NCBI RefSeq assembly: GCF_002104995.1
Contig: NW_024468265.1
Coordinates: forward strand, 186,001-250,000
Direction of reading: 5' to 3'
Length of the DNA stretch: 64,000 nt
From: Linderina pennispora
Taxonomy: Eukaryota > Kickxellomycota > Kickxellomycetes > Kickxellales > Kickxellaceae
Shown: positions 41,880 through 51,800 of the stretch, one piece after another
How the letters are laid out: the number at the start of each line of letters is the position of its first letter
Numbering within the stretch: the first letter of the stretch is position 1
Notes under the pieces: generated by a model
The model's input: the letters and a program-made list of their open reading frames with translations, nothing else
Told to the model about the DNA's origin: nothing
The model's database searches: none
Made by a program: the position numbers and the translations under genes

Positions 41880-42620
41880 CGGATTATAATCCATCTTAAT
41901 TCTTTGATATATACAGCATCAAAAGTGAAATCAAATCCTAGGTCAGACTACACTGGGCGGCAAAATTGAGTCACAAAATTTATTTTCAACTTTTACTTAC
42001 TATATCTTCGTCATCAGATAGCGTAGATACTTCCATTCGATATATGTTCGATGGGGCTTGACATAGTGTAAACATATATAGCCAAATGTTCTCTAACTAT
42101 TGTACCCCGCATGATATCGAAACAATAGTAAAAAAGTAGAAAAATTGGAGAGATAAAAATTTAACTCTGACTTCACAGTGCTATTTCTATACCTTATCAT
42201 TTTTTGAATAATGTGAAATCTCTGCCCACACCTCTGCTGCACTCCTTCTTCTATATTAATATCTCATTCACAATGTTGCTCAACTACACATAGTACTATC
42301 ATATAGTTAATATAAGATGAAAAATTAAGAAGGAAATGATCAATGCTTCAGCACTGCACTCACTCTTATAGATGTTGAGTGCATAGTTGATACTCACATG
42401 ACTAGAATTCAATGTTGAAGATATATGAGTTTGATAGCTAGTTCACAGAAGGAATAATCAACTATAAATCATATGTAACTACACTTCTGCTCTCCTTTGA
42501 AACAATTTAATTCTATGATATGATTTTTTATAATATTAATAAATTAATTGGTAGAGAGGGTACTACTGTGGCTATCTACTCTATACTATGAGATATCAAT
42601 ATATAACCTCTGTGCTTAAT
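41880..42620. other. AT-rich DNA without genes
   Basis: No ORF above 60 codons. It contains TTCGATATATGTTCGAT at about 42036, a near match to TTCGATCTATGTTCGAT at about 51439 near the other end of the island. The pair may mark the edges of an older insertion, but the similarity is short. Confidence 0.35.
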
Positions 42621-42967
42621 GGAGGCCATTCACAAATAAAAAGTTTAAAGAAACTTAATATCTTATATTTGATTAACCAATTAATAAATATTAAATCAAT
42701 TACTTGTAGTTGATAAATATTTTAAAAATCAGAATGTTTACTAATGGCCAAAAGGAGTATAGCAACTAGATTAACTAATAAACAATAATGCAAGAAAGGG
42801 TATTTCTCTAAAACCCCTATCAGCATCCTGAAAAATTTCAGTTGATTTCTTGTGACCCAGCCTCTAACTCAGTAGAAGCATATTAATTGTGTATCAACTG
42901 AAATTTTTCAGGATGCTGAAGGGGTTTCGGTGAAGCACCATATTTGGCATCTTTGTTTATTTATTAA
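42621..42967 (-). repeat. Foldback module a (reverse orientation, incomplete)
   Basis: Begins GGAGGCCATTCAC, the reverse of the module right end. It contains a long hairpin at 42811-42927: about 35-bp arms with one small mismatch and a 46-nt loop. The far side breaks off at the start of module b, so the other terminus is missing. Confidence 0.7.
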
Positions 42968-42968
42968 T

Positions 42969-43364
42969 GGAGGCCATTCATAAATATAAAAGTTTAAAGA
43001 AACTAAATATCTATTATCAGAATAACCAATTAACAAATAATAAATCAATTACTAGCAGTAGATAAATATTTTAAAATACAGAATGTTTAGCAATGGCCAA
43101 AAAGATTCTAGCAACTAAATTAACAAATAAACAAAGATGCCAAATATGGTGCTTCTACGAAACCCCCTTCAGCATCCTGAAAAATTTCAGTTGATTTCTC
43201 GGACGCAGCCTGTATCTCAGTAGAAGCATATTAATTGTGTATCAACTGAAATTTTTCAGGATGCTGAAGGGGGTTTCGTAGAAGCACCATATTTGGCATC
43301 TGAACAAGAAAACAATAAAAATATAAATAATTATTAAATAGCTAACCATTTCTGACTGATCTCC
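42969..43364 (-). repeat. Foldback module b (reverse orientation)
   Basis: Runs from GGAGGCCATTCA to GACTGATCTCC. Its hairpin arms, 43135-43195 and 43241-43301, are 61 bp and perfectly complementary around a 45-nt loop. It matches module e when reversed, including the loop and the GAACAAGAAAAC flank. Confidence 0.8.
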
Positions 43365-43517
43365 AATCTAGTTGCTAGAATCTTTTTGGCCACTAGTAAA
43401 CATTCTGTATTTTAAAATATTTATCTACTGTTAGTAATTGATTTCTTATTTATTAATTGGTTTTTCTGATAATAGATATTTAGTTTCTTTAAACTTTTAT
43501 ATTTGTGAATGGCCTCC
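43365..43517 (+). repeat. Partial foldback module (right half only)
   Basis: AATCTAGTTGCTAGAATC to GTGAATGGCCTCC, equal to the right third of modules c-e without a hairpin of its own. Its last nine bases, ATGGCCTCC, open the truncated ORF1 copy. Confidence 0.65.
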
Positions 43518-43892
43518 TTAGGAGTACATCTTAACTCCCTTTTGGGACTTGAGTTGAAGAATAGAGATAATATGCCTGATATATCTGATGCAAGATATAC
43601 TAGTAATGGCATTGAACAGCAAGGATTTGTTCAGCAATCTGATATCTTTATGGATTCATATGTTGTTGAGATACCTGAATCATATGCTCTTATAGATCAG
43701 ATTAATAATATTACTCCATTTGATAGATTGCATAGAGTTTTTGGTGATGGATACAGATTTAAGTATATGAAGTGCATGGTATGTGTGAGAAATGGTAAAG
43801 TCTCTGTTTATAAAGTATCTGCTCCAAATGTTGCAATAGCTGATCCTGCACTAACTGATATCTTTGGAGGTCATTCACAATCACTAAACTAA
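43509..43892 (+). pseudogene. Truncated first copy of ORF1
   Basis: The first ~119 codons align without gaps to the start of the 547-aa ORF1 at 44253, with about 15 amino-acid differences by my count. They end at IADPALTDIF, where a module left end (GGAGGTCATTCAC, 43866) interrupts. The frame runs eight codons into the module and stops. Many synonymous and non-synonymous differences show this is a separate, older copy and not a recent tandem duplication. Confidence 0.8.
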
Positions 43893-44261
43893 GTAAAAAA
43901 TAATTAGAAATTGTAAAACTTTTTGTTCTTTTGTTTTTTTTGAACTTCTCCGAAACCCCCTTCGGCATCCTGAAAAATTTCAGTTGATACACAATTAATA
44001 TGCTTCTACTGAGATACAGGCTGGGTCACAAGAAATCAACTGAAATTTTTCAGGATGCCGAAGGGGGTTTCGGAGAAGCGTCTGTTCTTATATTTTTATT
44101 TATTAGTTAATCTAGTTGCTAAAATCTTTTTGGCCATCACTAAACATTCTGATTTTTAAAATATTTTTCAACTACTAGTAATTGATTTGTTATTTAATAC
44201 TTGGTTATTCTGATACAAGATATTAAGTTTCTTTAAACTTTCTTATTTGTGAATGGCCTCC
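43866..44261 (+). repeat. Foldback module c
   Basis: About 396 bp from GGAGGTCATTCACAATC to GTGAATGGCCTCC, so with short imperfect terminal inverted repeats. Hairpin arms 43945-43988 and 44035-44078 are 44 bp, perfect, with a 46-nt loop. The right end provides the ATGGCCTCC that starts ORF1. Confidence 0.85.
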
Positions 44262-45896
44262 TTAAGAGTACATCTTAACTCCCTTTTGGGACTTGAGTTA
44301 AAGAATAGAGATAATATGCCTGATATATCTGATGCAAGATATACTAGTAATGGCATTGAACAGCAAGGATTTGTTCAGCAATCTGATATCTTTATGGATT
44401 CATGTGTTGTTGAGATTCCTGACTCATATACTCTAATGGATCAACTTCACAATATTACTCCTTTTGATAGATTGCATAGAGTATTTGGTGATGGTTATAG
44501 TTTTAAATACATAAGATGCAGCACAAGTGTGACAAATGGTAATGTCTCTGTGTATAAAGTATCTGCTCCAAATGTTGCAATAGCTGATCCTGCACTAACT
44601 GATATCTTTCTTAGGATGCATCAAGAACATGTATTTCTTCAAAACTATGATATTACTATGGATTGTCTAAATATTTCTTCTAGAGCTATTGTTAAGGAAT
44701 TTCTTCTTGATAATGGAATCAGTAGCAAAGATATTCTTGATGATGAAAATAAAGTTGGAGCAAACTGTATTAGCTGGTTTACTGAAGAAGATGAGATAAG
44801 AATAAGGAACAAGTTGTATAATAAATTTGTTCAACTCTTAGAAAGTGGTGAAGTTCGCAATCAACTTACTTCTAAGCTATCAGAGCTAGTGATGCCAACT
44901 TCTCAACAGTTTGGTGAAACACTTGTTGCTTGTAGGAATGAAGGATTAATGAGACTTGAGCTTACTGTTCACTCTCCTGAGTTGAAGGAAGTAGAATGGA
45001 ACACAAACTTAATTGTCAATACTCTTGAGTTTCTTCATAACTGCAGGACATTTGCAACATCTTATGAAAAGCAATGGATGGCACTAGTTGATCAGATTCA
45101 TAACAAACATACATTGTGTATTTACTTCCATAAAGAACATTCTCTTGGTTACTGCCATTGGTTCAATAAAACAACTAAGAAGAAACAAGGAATAGCTAAA
45201 AAGTTGAAAAAGAATGAGGATATGATGACTGTTGTTTCTAATCTTACATTCAATGGACACCCAACTGTTCTTCTTACATATGCTACTAGTAGTGGTCCTC
45301 TTGAATCTGAAGTTGTTCTGAGAAGAGATATCACAAACATCACTATTGTTCCTAGTCAGAGAAACTCCTTCTGGCCGGTTGCTTCAAGAGAAAGACAACA
45401 ACATACATTTGCTGAAATGGGACTTATTAACTATCGTGGAATACATATTGATTGGTTAACAGCTCAGCAAGCAAGAGAGAAAGTTAGGCTTTCAACTCTC
45501 TCAATTGTTAGTGATAATACTGATGGTTTAGGAATAGATGACCTTCTTGCAGATATTAGCAATATTGAACTTGATGATCTAGAACCTACATATTTAAGAG
45601 AAAATACTGATCTCAAGCCAGCTAGATATAAAGTTGCTTACAACATACTTCATGTTGGTGATGAGTTCTTAGTTAGTTATTACTTCCTATATACTTTTAG
45701 AGGATTACCTTTCTACTATCTAGATATTTCTATGATTCACAATGAAATAGTTAGTAGCACTCATATACTTATCAAAGTACTGGCAAGTAGTCCATTTGGT
45801 GAATGTATTGCTTCTGTTATTGGCCAACCAAATCAAGAAGTGGTGCTTAAAGTAACTAGAATTCATAATCGTATTATCCATACTGAGAGGATCTAG
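44253..45896 (+). CDS. Element ORF1, 547-aa protein of unknown function
   Basis: A full-length frame whose first three codons (Met-Ala-Ser) are the last nine bases of module c. I do not recognise the family. No signal peptide, membrane helix or zinc motif is visible. Blocks that look structured are HVFLQNYDITMDCLNISS, then KVGANCISWFTEEDEIRIRN, the GLMRLELTVHSPELKEVEW strand, NKHTLCIYFHKEHSLGYCHW and a lysine-rich helix NKTTKKKQGIAKKLKKN. The spacing of a 'YDIT(M)D' strand and a later 'RLEL' strand faintly recalls rolling-circle Rep proteins, but no HUH motif is present, so I do not claim it. Duplication of its 5' part and its place beside a transposase make it an element gene. Confidence 0.7.
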   Translation: MASLRVHLNSLLGLELKNRDNMPDISDARYTSNGIEQQGFVQQSDIFMDSCVVEIPDSYTLMDQLHNITPFDRLHRVFGDGYSFKYIRCSTSVTNGNVSVYKVSAPNVAIADPALTDIFLRMHQEHVFLQNYDITMDCLNISSRAIVKEFLLDNGISSKDILDDENKVGANCISWFTEEDEIRIRNKLYNKFVQLLESGEVRNQLTSKLSELVMPTSQQFGETLVACRNEGLMRLELTVHSPELKEVEWNTNLIVNTLEFLHNCRTFATSYEKQWMALVDQIHNKHTLCIYFHKEHSLGYCHWFNKTTKKKQGIAKKLKKNEDMMTVVSNLTFNGHPTVLLTYATSSGPLESEVVLRRDITNITIVPSQRNSFWPVASRERQQHTFAEMGLINYRGIHIDWLTAQQAREKVRLSTLSIVSDNTDGLGIDDLLADISNIELDDLEPTYLRENTDLKPARYKVAYNILHVGDEFLVSYYFLYTFRGLPFYYLDISMIHNEIVSSTHILIKVLASSPFGECIASVIGQPNQEVVLKVTRIHNRIIHTERI

Positions 45897-45898
45897 TT

Positions 45899-46153
45899 TT
45901 AAAATGGGCAGTTGGCAACCATTACTTCCATATCTGCACAACTGTAGTTGCATACATCAAACACATGCTTAATACTAACACCCCTATCTTCTGAAACATT
46001 CTTAATCCATGCTCTGATGTACACTGTTAATTTTCTGCTCATATTGAAATTTCTGCTAAGTAGTTGGACTAGCTTTTCTCTCTCTTCCTCATCTAGCTCA
46101 GAAAGTTGAGTGTTGAAGAACTTATAGAATGGGCCCATTATAATAAATGACAA
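45899..46153 (-). CDS. Element small gene A, 84 aa, unknown
   Basis: Opposite strand, in the gap between ORF1 (2 bp away) and the transposase (28 bp away). It is predicted all-helical and starts MSFIIMGPFYKFFNTQLSEL. It is a paralogue of small gene B at 47637: shared EER (E/D)xL, FNMS, a W-I pair, I-K/E-H and VC..S..D(M/I) positions over about 70 residues without gaps larger than a few residues. Conservation across two copies on opposite strands is good evidence that both are real genes. Fold and role unknown; a small DNA-binding or regulatory helper is one guess. Confidence 0.6.
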   Translation of the reverse strand: MSFIIMGPFYKFFNTQLSELDEEEREKLVQLLSRNFNMSRKLTVYIRAWIKNVSEDRGVSIKHVFDVCNYSCADMEVMVANCPF

Positions 46154-46181
46154 CTTTTAAATTTATTAGTACATCGCACAG

Positions 46182-47411
46182 ATGAATCATCAATTACAAG
46201 AACTCAGAGAAAAGGAATATCATAAGCTCTACACAAATAAGTGGAAATTTCTGAATGATGACTGGGTAGTTCTTAAGCATACAAAATATCACAGAAGTGA
46301 AGTTCGTGAAGTAAGAGAAATCAAACTTATAAAAGATACACTTCTTAAACATCTAGGGATGATTCCTGTTTTCTTCTTTCTGAATGTTTTGTTTGGCTGC
46401 ACTCATTATCCATGTCCTTACAGAAGTATAGAAAAAGGATTGCTTATCTTATACCAACTTGTAGAAGGATTGTCAATCAATGAAATGGAAAGATTCCTTC
46501 CAAGAAGTAGCTATCAAGTTATTCACAATATGTTCTACATTTCAGAAATGCAAGATTTGAATAAGAAGCTGATATTCTATCTGCAAACAATGTTTTCTAC
46601 TCCAGAGCTACGACTACTTGCAGCAAAGATGCAGAATCCTCATGGGTTTAAACATGTAACACTAATGTTAGATGGCCATGACTCAAGAGCACTACATAAT
46701 GGAGCATACAAACCAGGACTTTATTCCTTCAAGTTGAAGAAATCAGGATATCGTACACAAGTTTGCATTGATATAAATGGAATGGTTCTACTTGTTTCAC
46801 CAACAGAAGACTGTAGAGATAATCCAGATTCAAGAATGATTAAAAACATGGGATTATTAAAGAGGATATCCCCTATAGATTGTATTGTGCTTGATGGTGG
46901 CTATCCACAGAGTGTTCTTCAAGAGATGACAGAAGAAGAAGAGCAGGAGGACTTTGGAATGCATAACTTTTGTTTGCCAATTAGAAAGCAGAGAGGGGTA
47001 AACTTACTAGAAGCAGAAGTAGAGTACAATTCCCATCTTGGATCATTCCGTTCAATGGTAGAAAACACATTTGGAGAACTAGGAACAACATTCAAAAGGT
47101 TGTCAAATAAGGAGATTGTTCGAGTAAAGAATAAGAATGTTTACAATGTGCAAATGAAACTGTGCTGTGTATTATATAATATGAAGAAAATACTAGCAAA
47201 CAGTGATGTGCAAGTAGAACATCATCATACTCTCTGGGTTATGACAAACTTTGACTATCCTGAATCACACAATGAAAGATCAACACAAATGGAACCAACA
47301 TATACTTTACCTCAAAAGGTTGAGTTTGAAGCATCAATGGTTGAACTACAAAATAGATTTCTACAATCTAAAATTGATGACAACTATGACTGCTTTGTAG
47401 ATATGGGGTAA
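46182..47411 (+). CDS. DDE_Tnp_4-like transposase, 409 aa
   Basis: N-terminal helical region with a CTHYPCPYRSIEKGLLILYQ block typical of the HTH part of this class, then the RNase-H-like catalytic core. Candidate acidic residues are D164 (LMLDGHDSRAL), D238 (DCIVLDGGYPQ) and E294 (FRSMVENTFGELGTTFKRLS); the last has the 'R.mVEN.FG.lk..F..L' hallmark of DDE_Tnp_4/Harbinger-type enzymes. The frame is intact, so the enzyme may be active. A second, broken copy of the C-terminal half lies at 49161. Whether it belongs to PIF/Harbinger, ISL2EU or a new clade needs a tree; no Myb-like or THAP partner is visible. Confidence 0.85.
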   Translation: MNHQLQELREKEYHKLYTNKWKFLNDDWVVLKHTKYHRSEVREVREIKLIKDTLLKHLGMIPVFFFLNVLFGCTHYPCPYRSIEKGLLILYQLVEGLSINEMERFLPRSSYQVIHNMFYISEMQDLNKKLIFYLQTMFSTPELRLLAAKMQNPHGFKHVTLMLDGHDSRALHNGAYKPGLYSFKLKKSGYRTQVCIDINGMVLLVSPTEDCRDNPDSRMIKNMGLLKRISPIDCIVLDGGYPQSVLQEMTEEEEQEDFGMHNFCLPIRKQRGVNLLEAEVEYNSHLGSFRSMVENTFGELGTTFKRLSNKEIVRVKNKNVYNVQMKLCCVLYNMKKILANSDVQVEHHHTLWVMTNFDYPESHNERSTQMEPTYTLPQKVEFEASMVELQNRFLQSKIDDNYDCFVDMG

Positions 47412-47475
47412 CAACAGATATGATGCTAGCTACTTGATTTTAAAATAGCTAGTTCTTATCAATATTGTTCAATAT

Positions 47476-47636
47476 GGAGGGTATTCACAACTGCTAAATT
47501 TGTAAAAGATAGTTAGAACTTTTAAAACTTTATTATCTAATGCACATTCTACTCCTTCTCTTGTAATTCTTATAATTGATTGTTCATGGGTGGTAAGATA
47601 AGATAGACAACTCTGGTTCATTATCAATTTTAGAAA
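47476..47636 (+). repeat. Diverged module left end
   Basis: GGAGGGTATTCACAACTGCTAAA with the same downstream order (AGTTAGAA..TTTTAAAACTTT) as modules c and d, but without a hairpin. It lies between the transposase and small gene B and marks the edge of another element copy. Confidence 0.5.
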
Positions 47637-47858
47637 ATGCCATCATTCCATAATTTCCTTAAGAAACATATAGCTGATCTGAGTACTGAAGAAAGAGATA
47701 TGCTAACTTTAGTGCTTATCCATGACTTTAACATGAGTGCTGGCTTAGCATTCCAAGTGCATAATTGGATCCAACTTAGTGGAACTTTTTATGAGATAAA
47801 GGTTGAACATATATATGAAGTGTGTCAAAATTCCATAGATATATGGAGTGGATGGTAG
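47637..47858 (+). CDS. Element small gene B, 73 aa, paralogue of gene A
   Basis: MPSFHNFLKKHIADL, then STEERDMLTLVLIHDFNMS, a helix ending in HNWIQ and VEHIYEVCQNSIDIW. It aligns end to end with the 84-aa gene at 45899-46153 on the other strand. Very close to the 3' side of the transposase, after a short non-coding gap. Because it is short, coding status rests on the paralogy rather than on length. Confidence 0.6.
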   Translation: MPSFHNFLKKHIADLSTEERDMLTLVLIHDFNMSAGLAFQVHNWIQLSGTFYEIKVEHIYEVCQNSIDIWSGW

Positions 47859-48742
47859 CATATAATATGTTTTAAAATGGTAGTTATATAACTATGACCA
47901 TTCTGTAGCCCTCACTTACAACTCTTAGATATATTTGTTGGTGTATTATTCCTTTCTATAGAGTAATTGCTTTTCTAAAAGAACTATCATCTGGTATCTA
48001 AATATGAGTTGGCTGTATATCTCTCCTATTAATATGAATATCTAAATAGTAGTAGGAATGTCCTCTGAATATACAGAGTGCATAATATATAACTACAAAA
48101 CCATTACTAAAATAGAGAACAATATGAGCAACTCTTTACTAAAGGCTTAAGATCTAGATTCTCATATAAATATTGCCCTTATTTCATCTAGTATGGCATC
48201 TTCAATCACTGTTGTTAGTGCATTGATCTTTTGTTCACCTATAGAAACTACACCTCAGACATTTCTTATAGACAAATCATATTATTTGCTTATTTGAGTA
48301 TTTTCTGTCTATCTAACTAATATGCATCTCTTAATAGTAAACTAATCACATCTTATCAAAAGTGTGATATTGCTTAGATATAGGATATATAGACCAGAAG
48401 TAATTTCTCAGATTTAGAACAATAGATATATTATCATCAACTCTTCTAAGAACATTTACTGTATTAAGCATATTCTTATGTGACTTGTATATTTGATGTT
48501 TTAAATAGCACAGTTTGATGCTTTCTAAAATTGATGACATATATGATTGCTTGGTGCATATCTATTAATTACAGATGGGATTCTAACAACTTGATGAATT
48601 TATTATGATTTTTTAAAATGGCATAATTTGATTCTTTTTAAAATTGATGATATATATGATTGCTTGGTATTAGAAAAATAGTTATAAATAGGATGATAAC
48701 GACTTGATGACTAGAACATGATGTTTTAAAATGGCAGCATTT
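47859..48742. repeat. AT-rich spacer ending in ~110-bp tandem repeats
   Basis: No gene from 47859 to about 48480. From about 48484, sequence of the type TTCTAAAATTGATGACATATATGATTGCTT...TTTTAAAATGGCA repeats with a period of about 110 bp (starts near 48523 and 48632). The unit begins with the last codons of the transposase gene (compare 47365-47455), so the array grew from the gene's 3' end. Confidence 0.7.
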
Positions 48743-49160
48743 GGAGGTTATTCACAATCACTAGGAGGTCATTCACAATCACTAAACTAAGTAAAAAATA
48801 ATTAGAAATTGTAAAACTTTTTGTTCTTTTGTTTTTTTTGAACTTCTCCGAAACCCCCTTCGGCATCCTGAAAAATTTCAGTTGATACACAATTAATATG
48901 CTTCTACTGAGATACAGGCTGGGTCACAAGAAATCAACTGAAATTTTTCAGGATGCCGAAGGGGGTTTCGGAGAAGCGTCTGTTCTTATATTTTTGTTTA
49001 TTAGTTAATCTAGTTGCTAAAATCTTTTTGGCCATCACTAAACATTCTGATTTTTAAAATATTTTTCAACTGCTAGTAATTGATTTGTTATTTAATACTT
49101 GGTTATTCTGATACAAGATATTAAGTTTCTTTAAACTTTCTTATTTAGTGAATGGCCTCC
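48743..49160 (+). repeat. Foldback module d with doubled left end
   Basis: Two left ends in a row (GGAGGTTATTCACAATCACTA at 48743, GGAGGTCATTCACAATC at 48764), then a hairpin identical to that of module c (arms 48843-48886 and 48933-48976). It ends GTGAATGGCCTCC at 49160, fused directly to transposase sequence. Confidence 0.8.
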
Positions 49161-49720
49161 CAACTGAAGACTGTAGAGATCACCCAGACTCAAGAATGAT
49201 TAAGAACATGGGGTTGCTGAAGAATATATCACCTATTGATTGTATTGTGCTTGATGGTGGTTATCCACAAAGTATTTTGGAAGAGATGACTGAGGAAGAA
49301 GAGCAGGGATACTTTTGGACTGCACAACTTTTGTTTACCAGTAAGAAAGCAGAGAGGAACAAGCTTATCAGAAACAGAAGCTGAATATAATTCCCATCTT
49401 GGATCATTCCGTTCAATGGTAGAAAATACATTTGGGAGAACTAGGCCAATACATTCAAAAGGCTGTCAAACAGGGAGATTGTTAGAGTAAAGAATAGGAA
49501 TGTTTACAATGTGCAAATGAAGTTATGCTGCTTAACTCTATAATATGAAGAAGATACTAGCAAACAGTGATGTACAAATTGATCATCATCACTCACTCTG
49601 GGTTATGAGCAACTTTGATTACCCTGATACACATGATAAGTCAACACAAGTGGAACCAATACATACTTTGCCCCAAAAAGCAGAGTTAGAAGCATCTATT
49701 GTTGAAATTCAAAATTGATT
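49161..49720 (+). pseudogene. Second transposase copy, C-terminal half, frameshifted
   Basis: Starts at the codons for PTEDCRDHPDSRM, exactly after the module end, and follows the transposase through IVLDGGYPQS, GSFRSMVENTFG and VYNVQMKLCC to its 3' end. At least four +1 breaks occur (after EEEEQGYF, in TTTGGGAGA, in AGGCCAAT and near TGCTTAACT), each removable by dropping one base. The first catalytic Asp region is absent, so it cannot be an active enzyme whatever the cause of the breaks. Confidence 0.8.
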
Positions 49721-50060
49721 CCTTCAATCTAAAATTGATGATACATATGATTGCTTGGTGCATATCGATTAATTACAGATGGAGTATTAATGACTTGATG
49801 ACTTGAATTTGATGTTTTAAAATAGCACAGCTTGATTCTTTCTAAAATTGATGACACATATGATTGCTTGGTGCATATCTATTAATTACAGATGGGATTC
49901 TAATAACTTGATGAATTTATTATGATTTTTTAAAATGGTATAGTTTGATACTTTCTAAAATTGATGAGTTATATGATTGCTTGGTATTAGATAAATAGTT
50001 ATAAATAGGATGATAACGACTTGATGACTTGAACATGATGTTTTAAAATGGCAGCTTTTG
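49721..50060 (+). repeat. Three ~111-117-bp tandem repeats derived from the transposase 3' end
   Basis: Copies begin near 49722, 49839 and 49950. They are the same unit as at 48484-48742 and follow the second transposase fragment in the same way. The array ends in TTTTAAAATGGCAGC, as does the first one. Confidence 0.75.
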
Positions 50061-50079
50061 AATAAATCTAATTCTATAA

Positions 50080-50478
50080 GGAGATCAGTCAGAAATGGTT
50101 AGCTATTTAATAATTATTAATATTTTTGTTGTTTTCTTGTTCTGATGCCAAATATGGTGCTTCTACCGAAACCCCCTTCGGCATCCTGAAAAATTTCAGT
50201 TGATACACAATTAATATGCTTCTACTGAGATAGAGGCTGCGTCCCGAGAAATCAACTGAAATTTTTCAGGATGCCGAAGGGGTTTCATAGAAGCACCATA
50301 TTTGGCATCTTTGTTTGTTTGTTAATCTAGTTGCTAGAATCTTTTTGGCCATTGCTAAAACATTCTGTTTTTTTAAAATATTTATCTACTGTTAGTAATT
50401 GATTTCTTATTTGTTAATTGGTTATTCTGTTAACAGATATTTAGTTTCTTTAAACTTTTATATTTATGAATGGCCTCC
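50080..50478 (+). repeat. Foldback module e
   Basis: GGAGATCAGTCAGAAATGG to TATGAATGGCCTCC. Hairpin arms 50144-50204 and 50251-50309 are nearly perfect around a 46-nt loop. It is the forward counterpart of module b. Confidence 0.8.
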
Positions 50479-50742
50479 ATTGGCTATAGATATCAGTCAG
50501 GGGTAATGCCAGCCTGGCTTAGATACCTGGTAGAGCAAGTTGAGATACCATTCACTAAGTTGCAGTTTGAAAAATCAAGGTACTTTTTTTTTTTTCAAAA
50601 TGTGAAAATAGCTATACCTATGATAGGGGGTCCACTATTTGGGCTGCTTTATATTCTGCAAGTACGAAATATGGCTAGTTGGCTGGCTGCCAAAAGGTGG
50701 GCTAGAGTCACTGTTATAACAAAAATAAATGGAGCTGACTAA
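50470..50742 (+). CDS. Short ORF fused to module e, unknown
   Basis: 90 codons opening with the module's ATGGCCTCC (Met-Ala-Ser), then GYRYQSGVMPAWLRYLVEQ and a hydrophobic stretch (IAIPMIGGPLFGLLYIL) after a T11 run that encodes four Phe. I do not recognise it and there is no second copy to support it. It may be chance. Confidence 0.25.
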   Translation: MASIGYRYQSGVMPAWLRYLVEQVEIPFTKLQFEKSRYFFFFQNVKIAIPMIGGPLFGLLYILQVRNMASWLAAKRWARVTVITKINGAD

Positions 50743-51800
50743 GCAAAAAATTGTCAACCATGCTACCATATTCCTAGCACTGGTAAAATTAAATGCAATA
50801 TAGTGGTGGGTTACTTAGGTATTGATATAGAAAACCCAGGCATCAGCCAGTGGCACTTGATCATGACCAGTATTAAAATGCATTTCATCTGCATTCCAAA
50901 TTTCATTATTCATCTAGCACCAAACTGATTATCTATTACACAACTCTATCTCATATAAACAAGGTGATGCTAACATGCATCATCTGTAGCCAACATGTGT
51001 TTCCAGGCGAAATTATGCAAGAGAATACTGAGGCAAAGCATCTGTAGGTACTTTACTATGATGCATTGTAAAACTAGCATCCTTATAAAATATACCAAAG
51101 GGATCAAGCCTATACAACACCTAGTAAATAAAGCCAGGGTGTTTAAACCATATGTGTTGTGCATAGAGCATAGGCATAGAAGTAGATATACCAGGTGTGC
51201 CACTAGTTACCTTATGTAAATAAGAGTAGTGTTTTGACAACAGAATAACTATATACTCATTATGATGGTTGTCTGAATAGTGCCTGGTGAAACTGTTGGT
51301 TGTTGGGGAGTTGTGTGGTGTAAGTATGCAGTATATAGAGGTGTGTACTTCAAGTGAAAGTCACAGTGAGAAAAGAGAAGAGAGAAAAGAGAAATGATTA
51401 CATACCCTAACAATTGGCACATACACTCACTACGAAACGAATGTCTTCGATCTATGTTCGATTGAGACATCATACCAAGGGAGATATCATGTCTCCCTCA
51501 AAGGTCCGGGTCTGTGCACCTGCTGCCATGCACCCGGCCGCTGCGCAACGGATTCGTGGCCATGCAAATGAAGGGGTATCGCTGAGGCAATATCATCGCA
51601 AGCATGTCTCTCTACATGCGATGTCTGCGGATTAGTATTGCAGATATAGGTTCGTGAGAACATCGATCGCCATGATTCGCGGTGGTGATCAACAGGTCTG
51701 CAAATCATCCCAACGGGTTTTGACGAGCTGCGGTAGCTGAACTATCCCTCCACTTTGGGCAATGGACAGCATGCTCTGTCTTGGCACAGGGCGGTTCGGC
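50743..51800. other. Right flank of the island, no supported gene
   Basis: AT content falls stepwise. Only short frames on both strands. A stretch from 51236 (TGACAACAG) to 51413 (CCCTAACA) has TG...CA ends like a small LTR, but I found no matching target-site duplication. From about 51480 the composition is that of normal genic DNA. Confidence 0.4.

Follow-up and report, generated by a model that had tools for sequence, protein, structure and literature searches.

Mobile DNA elements of the PIF/Harbinger type carry a DDE_Tnp_4 transposase with a second protein beside it and leave a 3-bp target-site duplication (TSD) of sequence TWA, and ISL2EU, a related transposase group, leaves a 2-bp TSD. 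Here we analyse an element of the fungus Linderina pennispora that carries such a transposase between two long direct repeats (LDRs) of about 396 bp. It lies intact at 43866-49160 of a 64,000-nucleotide stretch of contig NW_024468265.1 (the window), within an AT-rich island, and its interior holds open reading frame 1 (ORF1), a gene on the opposite strand (small A) and the transposase gene. The closest described design is that of KolobokP (Kojima and Bao 2022, PMC9587614), which belongs to the Kolobok superfamily, has been reported from seven animal phyla and has an accessory His-Me finger nuclease. In the available part of that paper the elements are given as LTDR-INT-LTDR, with an interior (INT) between two long terminal direct repeats (LTDRs) of about 450 or 660 bp that have short terminal inverted repeats (TIRs) of their own. 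Solo LTDRs and (LTDR-INT)n-LTDR arrays occur there with TSDs, those of the solo repeats being 3-4 or 4-5 bp long. The same part calls the paired direct repeats unlike those of any other DNA transposon and compares KolobokP with the translocatable units of IS26.

Comparison with known elements

We class the Linderina element as a variant of those composite-like DNA transposons whose termini are long direct repeats. As far as KolobokP is described in the available text, the two have in common the long direct terminal repeats with TIRs of their own around the genes, the occurrence of solo repeats and of arrays sharing one repeat, and an interior that encodes a DDE transposase together with an accessory protein. 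They differ in that the host here is a fungus, the transposase is of the DDE_Tnp_4 family by Pfam match, the accompanying genes are an orphan ORF1 and an antisense small A, neither of which has a Pfam match to the His-Me finger nuclease, and the TSD is 3 bp. A palindrome, inversion of its loop and a start codon inside the repeat, all present here, were not seen for KolobokP in that text. The only Pfam families above cut-off for the transposase were DDE_Tnp_4 and DDE_Tnp_1, which speaks against a transposase of the Kolobok type.

The definition of PIF/Harbinger fits only in part. The DDE_Tnp_4 transposase with its conserved triad, the second protein and the TSD length agree with it, whereas the TSD is not TWA and the long direct terminal repeats are an addition. 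A Myb-like partner, or the YqaJ-like nuclease of ISL2EU, had already been noted as not seen in a preliminary description of the island, and neither was found here: three subfamily members of ORF1 matched no Pfam family at E<=10, and small A and its paralogue small B matched none at E<=1, although a remote fold relation to Myb/SANT-like proteins may escape Pfam. The 3-bp TSD also sets the element apart from ISL2EU. Bacterial composite transposons and IS26 units, as described in the text available, likewise have mobile direct repeats and arrays sharing one repeat, but the Linderina transposase gene is placed between the repeats, not within either of them. Pfam scans of ORF1, small A, the transposase and small B found neither the reverse transcriptase nor the integrase that a long terminal repeat (LTR) retrotransposon would carry. 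Apart from KolobokP, one open-access library yielded no previous account of an element of this kind. That a KolobokP-like design recurs in a second kingdom, combined with another type of transposase and with a palindrome and loop inversion as additions, points to convergence of the architecture.

Organisation and distribution of the element

The preliminary description had named a 547-aa ORF1, a DDE_Tnp_4 protein and two small ORFs, all of which are present; the paired direct repeats, the palindrome, the loop inversion and the 3-bp TSD are absent from it. Across the L. pennispora genome (26.17 Mb, 222 contigs) the LDRs are about 396-462 bp long and flank, in direct orientation, ORF1, antisense small A and the DDE_Tnp_4 transposase. 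The genome holds 79 matches to ORF1 and 105 to the transposase, which are lower bounds since scoring in the DNA searches covered 40 of 158-184 initial candidates. They fall into three subfamilies, in which full-length ORF1 is about 97-100%, 88-90% and 50-52% identical to the window copy. A transposase lies on the same strand within 450 bp of 58 of the 79 ORF1 matches, and of 40 of the 46 near-full-length ones, mostly at a spacing of 288 or 305 bp (counted with 97 of the 105 transposase matches, the 8 lowest-scoring being omitted). Within L. pennispora, then, the two genes travel together, as had been proposed. Copies identical to those of the window, of ORF1 at C35 and of the transposase at C212, indicate recent activity. 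Comparisons between subfamilies give ratios of nonsynonymous to synonymous substitution rates of 0.18-0.33 (ORF1), 0.10-0.14 (transposase) and 0.09-0.38 (small A); all three genes are under purifying selection. Several copies sit at contig ends (C35:1-20k, C13:762-770k, C2:1-5k, C24:721-725k, C133 and C190:1-4k), and either they are subtelomeric or they have led the assembly to break off there.

Full elements and single repeats as inserted units

Thirty-five element copies were examined, 13 of which were unscorable for a TSD (chimeric, truncated, nested, or with missing or array-shared ends). A matching 3-bp TSD flanked 16 of the 22 scorable full elements (10/11 in subfamily 3, 4/8 in subfamily 2 and 2/3 in subfamily 1). 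At a chance of about 0.02 per copy, P for this outcome is about 1e-22 under an assumed base composition. The duplicated sequence varied, being TTA in one of the 16 and TAA in none. Among 95 LDRs, 12 were solo LDRs with a 3-bp duplication of their own, this count comprising TSD-bearing ones only. We joined the flanks of each insertion and searched the sequence covered by the analysis for the unoccupied site, in which the triplet stands only once. A matching empty site was found for 6 of the 16 TSD-bearing full elements and for all 12 TSD-bearing solo LDRs (18 of 28 insertions); the same search for the six full elements lacking a TSD found none. Insertions thus comprise full elements as well as single LDRs. 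At C133, C1+ and C157, elements stand head to tail in arrays with one LDR in common.

At C144 and C146, a full element and a solo LDR occupy one site in ORF1 and share a left flank of 62 bp. Interconversion of the two was considered and rejected, since their right flanks and their LDRs differ; they may be two insertions at one site. They were counted as separate insertions in the empty-site test and put to no use as evidence of interconversion.

The two repeats of an element are alike

LDR pairs were compared in the 25 elements whose two LDRs are close to full length, after setting the loops to one orientation. The median number of differences within an element was 0 in subfamily 2 (n=9), 0 in subfamily 3 (n=13) and 3 in subfamily 1 (n=3), against 13, 30 and 9, respectively, between elements. 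Random re-pairing was as close as the true pairs in 0 of 5000 trials in each of subfamilies 2 and 3. Left-left, right-right and left-right distances between different elements were about equal, so the left and right LDRs are not separate lineages. With exceptions, the LDR pairs behave as LTR pairs do. Such alike pairs suggest a step at which only one LDR is present.

A palindrome with an invertible loop

Both LDRs of the intact element have the short TIRs given in Table 1, and both contain a palindrome of perfect 44-bp arms around a loop of 46 bases. As single-stranded DNA, this palindrome folds with -56.4 kcal/mol, compared with a mean of -14.9 for 200 shuffles (z -15.4). Its arms are perfect in 25 of 28 LDRs of subfamily 3, 16 of 21 of subfamily 2 and 7 of 8 of subfamily 1. 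The best local DNA match between the LDRs of subfamilies 1 and 3 is the palindrome arm (score 49; mean 23 and maximum 35 in 100 shuffles), which is therefore constrained. In each of the subfamily-3 elements L061 and L063, the left and the right LDR are the same or two gaps apart except that the loop is inverted between perfect arms. Of the 16 full elements with a TSD, four (C112, C1-, C135 and C144+) have left and right loops of differing orientation; these four belong to subfamily 3. The loops also differ in C24 and in five subfamily-2 copies that have no scorable or matching TSD. Both orientations are found in all three subfamilies.

Genes of the interior

The ATG of ORF1 lies within a terminal repeat of the left LDR in all three subfamilies, and in the window copy this is the right one. 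Beyond Pfam, the three ORF1 members were searched at E<=10 against PHROGs (best E=0.26 and 0.32) and NCBIfam (best E=0.012 and 0.031); each of these hits was confined to a single member, and all were judged to be chance. PDB sequences gave a single match at E=4.9. Among 5.8 billion proteins, single-sequence and profile searches returned only the three L. pennispora clusters; no relatives were found in IMG/VR viral contigs, prokaryote genomes or phages, and plasmids gave two matches at E=0.3 covering 15%. These searches depend on shared short words or close likeness, and remote relatives may escape them. AlphaFold2 gave no confident fold for the window ORF1 or for P0003 of subfamily 3 (mean predicted local distance difference test score 43 and 39), and Foldseek with the former model found nothing at E<=0.001. 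The lack of a Pfam match agrees with the first description of ORF1 as belonging to no recognisable family, and an orphan 547-aa protein under selection is offered for study.

Small A is conserved as an antisense ORF in all three subfamilies. Over 63 aligned residues, small B is identical to the small A of subfamily 3 at 39 and to the neighbouring small A at 19. The two small ORFs and their paralogy are as first described, with the qualification that small B is closer to the subfamily-3 small A than to its neighbour. The proposal that ORF1, small A, the transposase and small B together define a new element group is not supported as regards small B, which was dropped as a defining gene: it lies in a stretch without a match in the subfamily-2 reference element (Table 1).

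The transposase matches PF13359 (DDE_Tnp_4) with E=1.1e-13, and its one match in PDB is weak (E=0.011). In an alignment of the 118 proteins of at least 350 aa, out of 123 available, D164 and D238 were present in all 118 and E294 in 117, with one gap; these are presumably the catalytic residues. A homologue search found 162 proteins at E<=0.01, and the named organisms among the 120 best were early-diverging fungi. In a quick tree of 69 proteins (66 of these 120 and three Linderina sequences), the Linderina transposases group with one from Coemansia sp. RSA 2531 and two further sequences, with a Shimodaira-Hasegawa-like approximate likelihood-ratio test (SH-aLRT) support of 100. For P0004, the closest full-length relative among the matches listed, there were 103 matches in the genome, and the intact ones compared lay at transposase loci already listed. 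Many relatives of the transposase carry a chromodomain (P0006, P0007, P0014 and others, Mortierellomycota and Mucoromycota among them); it was not seen in the Linderina transposase or in the partial Coemansia one (270 aa).

Composition of the island

The island lies between an M24 peptidase gene and an S10 carboxypeptidase gene, one on each side. The abrupt change in composition noted earlier is evident in the GC profile: all 1-kb bins from 42001 to 51000 have a GC content of 0.29-0.35, the two bins to the left 0.51-0.64, and those to the right 0.44 and then 0.51. In five measured stretches of the island, unrelated repeats included, the observed/expected ratio of CpG is 0.06-0.42 with GpC normal; in two flanks it is 0.85-0.94.

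How the element may move, and alternatives

We think it probable that this is a composite-like DNA transposon with two mobile LDRs, each resembling a miniature inverted-repeat transposable element (MITE), and that the likeness of the LDRs arises through a single-LDR stage. Like its DDE relatives, the transposase would take one end of the left type and one of the right type and attach them to the target at points staggered by 3 bp. With four ends per element, use of the outer ends would move the whole element and use of the two ends of one LDR would move a solo LDR. The pair would stay alike because the element, as it propagates, at one point has only one LDR. This form is most probably a circle of one LDR and the interior, produced when the two LDRs recombine. 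Re-entry might then take place at an LDR; alternatively, the circle might insert replicatively as its one LDR transposes, leaving an LDR copy on each side. The KolobokP paper (PMC9587614) discusses such routes in connection with IS26 units. ORF1 might be a DNA-binding or strand-processing factor at the conserved palindrome, although this is a guess from the conservation of both. The recent copies in this 26-Mb fungal genome make it possible to test by what means elements of this design maintain the likeness of their two ends. Several observations weigh against this reading. An element's own partner is strictly the closest LDR in only 6 of 25 elements; in 11, an LDR of a different element shows zero differences just as the partner does, and in 8 (C157-169661, C212+201352, C1-2114010, C133-9187, C144+9211, C212-217658, C201-717266 and the window copy, C79) another element has a closer LDR. 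There has thus been exchange between elements too, or the copies of one lineage are too alike to distinguish. Six of the 22 scorable elements, the window copy included, have no TSD, and the two LDRs would equally stay alike if they underwent gene conversion while the element remained in place. The architecture, TSDs, empty sites, arrays, pair likeness, loop inversion and purifying selection on three genes were all read in one assembly, and neither a circle nor transposition was observed. A further-reaching proposal, which we hold to be speculative and on the whole unlikely, is a second, independent case of DNA-level 'LTR' transposition: a fungal DDE_Tnp_4 element with a one-LDR circle, replicative, cointegrate-type regeneration of the LDR and an ORF1 of new fold that processes a loop-flipping palindrome.

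It is possible, though we doubt it, that LDR-INT-LDR is moved by cut-and-paste from its outer ends only, and that the pair becomes alike by later gene conversion and unequal crossover with neither circle nor single-LDR stage. Arrays sharing an LDR and solo LDRs are expected under unequal crossover, the fold-back units with a right end on both sides suggest recombination inside the palindrome, and the eight elements with a closer foreign LDR could result from ectopic recombination or conversion. However, the TSD and empty site of solo LDRs, in 12 of 12 tested, mean that LDRs also move alone, or that full precursors stood there, and the pair is alike even in C13-765171, a lineage apart, whose LDRs have 1 difference from each other and 30 or more from those of other elements. 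That LDRs occur alone with a TSD would also suit an ordinary Harbinger-like element lying by chance between two inserted MITEs. This we find scarcely credible, since arrangement, orientation and the ATG in the repeat are the same in three subfamilies, the third at 51% ORF1 identity, and TSDs lie at the outer ends. For the loop inversion itself, the odds appear even that it is simple recombination between the inverted arms, or an assembly error, and has no role in transposition. Exchange between inverted repeats flips the segment between them, natural inversions between TIRs are reported for bacterial insertion sequences (from the available part of PMC3004938), and the breakpoints here lie inside perfect arms. 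The mostly perfect arms and a core conserved between subfamilies 1 and 3 suggest a function instead, and the finding of both orientations in all three subfamilies also tells against an inversion without a role.

Two other explanations have little in their favour. ORF1 could be a rolling-circle-type replication initiator, with the element replicating in circular or hairpin form. The palindromic repeats, the arrays and the likeness of the LDRs would be in keeping with this, and motifs such as YNK..E and RxEL may recall those of initiators. We regard this as very unlikely: besides the lack of a Pfam match to E<=10 and of a recovered fold, the Rep_trans model, the only initiator model tried, found no match genome-wide at E<=10, while its control in Bacillus subtilis was found. 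Acquisition of the island from an AT-rich donor, which the preliminary description had thought possible, is not borne out, is not required and seems very improbable. In its favour, the GC content at third codon positions (GC3) is 0.23-0.40 in the element genes compared with 0.63-0.85 in the two flanking host genes. Against it, CpG depletion is common to all five measured stretches, unrelated repeats too, the transposase groups with the Coemansia protein, and the three diverged subfamilies suggest long residence. In addition, 5-methylcytosine in Phycomyces is located in repeats, as it is in L. pennispora, according to the available part of PMC11258239. Methylation and decay can be the source of part of the AT-richness; a GC3 of 0.23 is hardly reachable through CpG loss alone.

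A nest of repeats around the intact copy

The preliminary description had treated the island as one element with repeated parts. Repetition there is, but the island comprises at least five nested or adjacent repeats and not a single element (Table 1).

Table 1. Features of the intact element and of the adjoining repeats (positions in the window)
Feature	Position	Strand	Remarks
Fold-back derivative, ~500 bp	42621..43517		right-type end on both sides (42621-42968 and 43365-43517); split by solo LDR
Solo LDR of subfamily 2	42969..43364	-	97%; TSD AAT at 42966-42968 / 43365-43367
N-terminal ORF1 piece	43509..43865	+	older copy, interrupted by intact element
Left LDR (LDR-L)	43866..44261	+	own TIRs GGAGGTCATTCA ... 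TGAATGGCCTCC
Left palindrome arm of LDR-L	43945..43988		44-bp perfect palindrome; loop 43989-44034 (46 bases)
Right palindrome arm of LDR-L	44035..44078		
ORF1	44253..45896	+	547 aa, orphan protein; ATG within TIR of LDR-L
Small A	45899..46138	-	79 aa, antisense; flanked by ORF1 and transposase; conserved in all three subfamilies
DDE_Tnp_4 transposase	46182..47411	+	409 aa; conserved D164, D238, E294
Subfamily-1 stretch	47419..48481		no match in subfamily-2 reference element
Small B	47637..47858	+	73 aa; paralogue of small A, nearest to subfamily-3 small A
Additional left-terminal-repeat copy	48743..48763	+	21 bp, directly before LDR-R
Right LDR (LDR-R)	48764..49160	+	99% identical to LDR-L, same orientation
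Older subfamily-2 transposase, 3' part and tail	49161..50079	+	stops in transposase piece; 98.3% to subfamily-2 reference
Right LDR of the older subfamily-2 element (49161-50079)	50080..50478	+	

The intact copy is flanked by the triplets TTT and CAA. The sequences on its two sides correspond to different parts of the subfamily-2 reference (86% on one side and 98% on the other) and are thus derived from different older elements. Matches of about 500 bp similar to the fold-back unit occur at C140:68274, C112:888766 and C1:3295422.

To the left, 41949-42620 is a separate repeat of about 675 bp with 27 near-full-length matches elsewhere at 81-86%. It forms an inverted pair 0.2-0.4 kb apart at no fewer than three places (C190:978213/979087, C148:31777/32851 and C168:582908/583814), and possibly represents the long terminal repeats of another element. 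To the right, 50481-51420 is a duplicated locus, shared with C147:74675-75612 (98%) and C129:7021-7958 (89%), each directly after a subfamily-2 LDR match. An ORF of 90 aa at 50470-50742 likewise has its ATG within an LDR terminal repeat, and a start codon in this position could be lent by any insertion to the DNA downstream.

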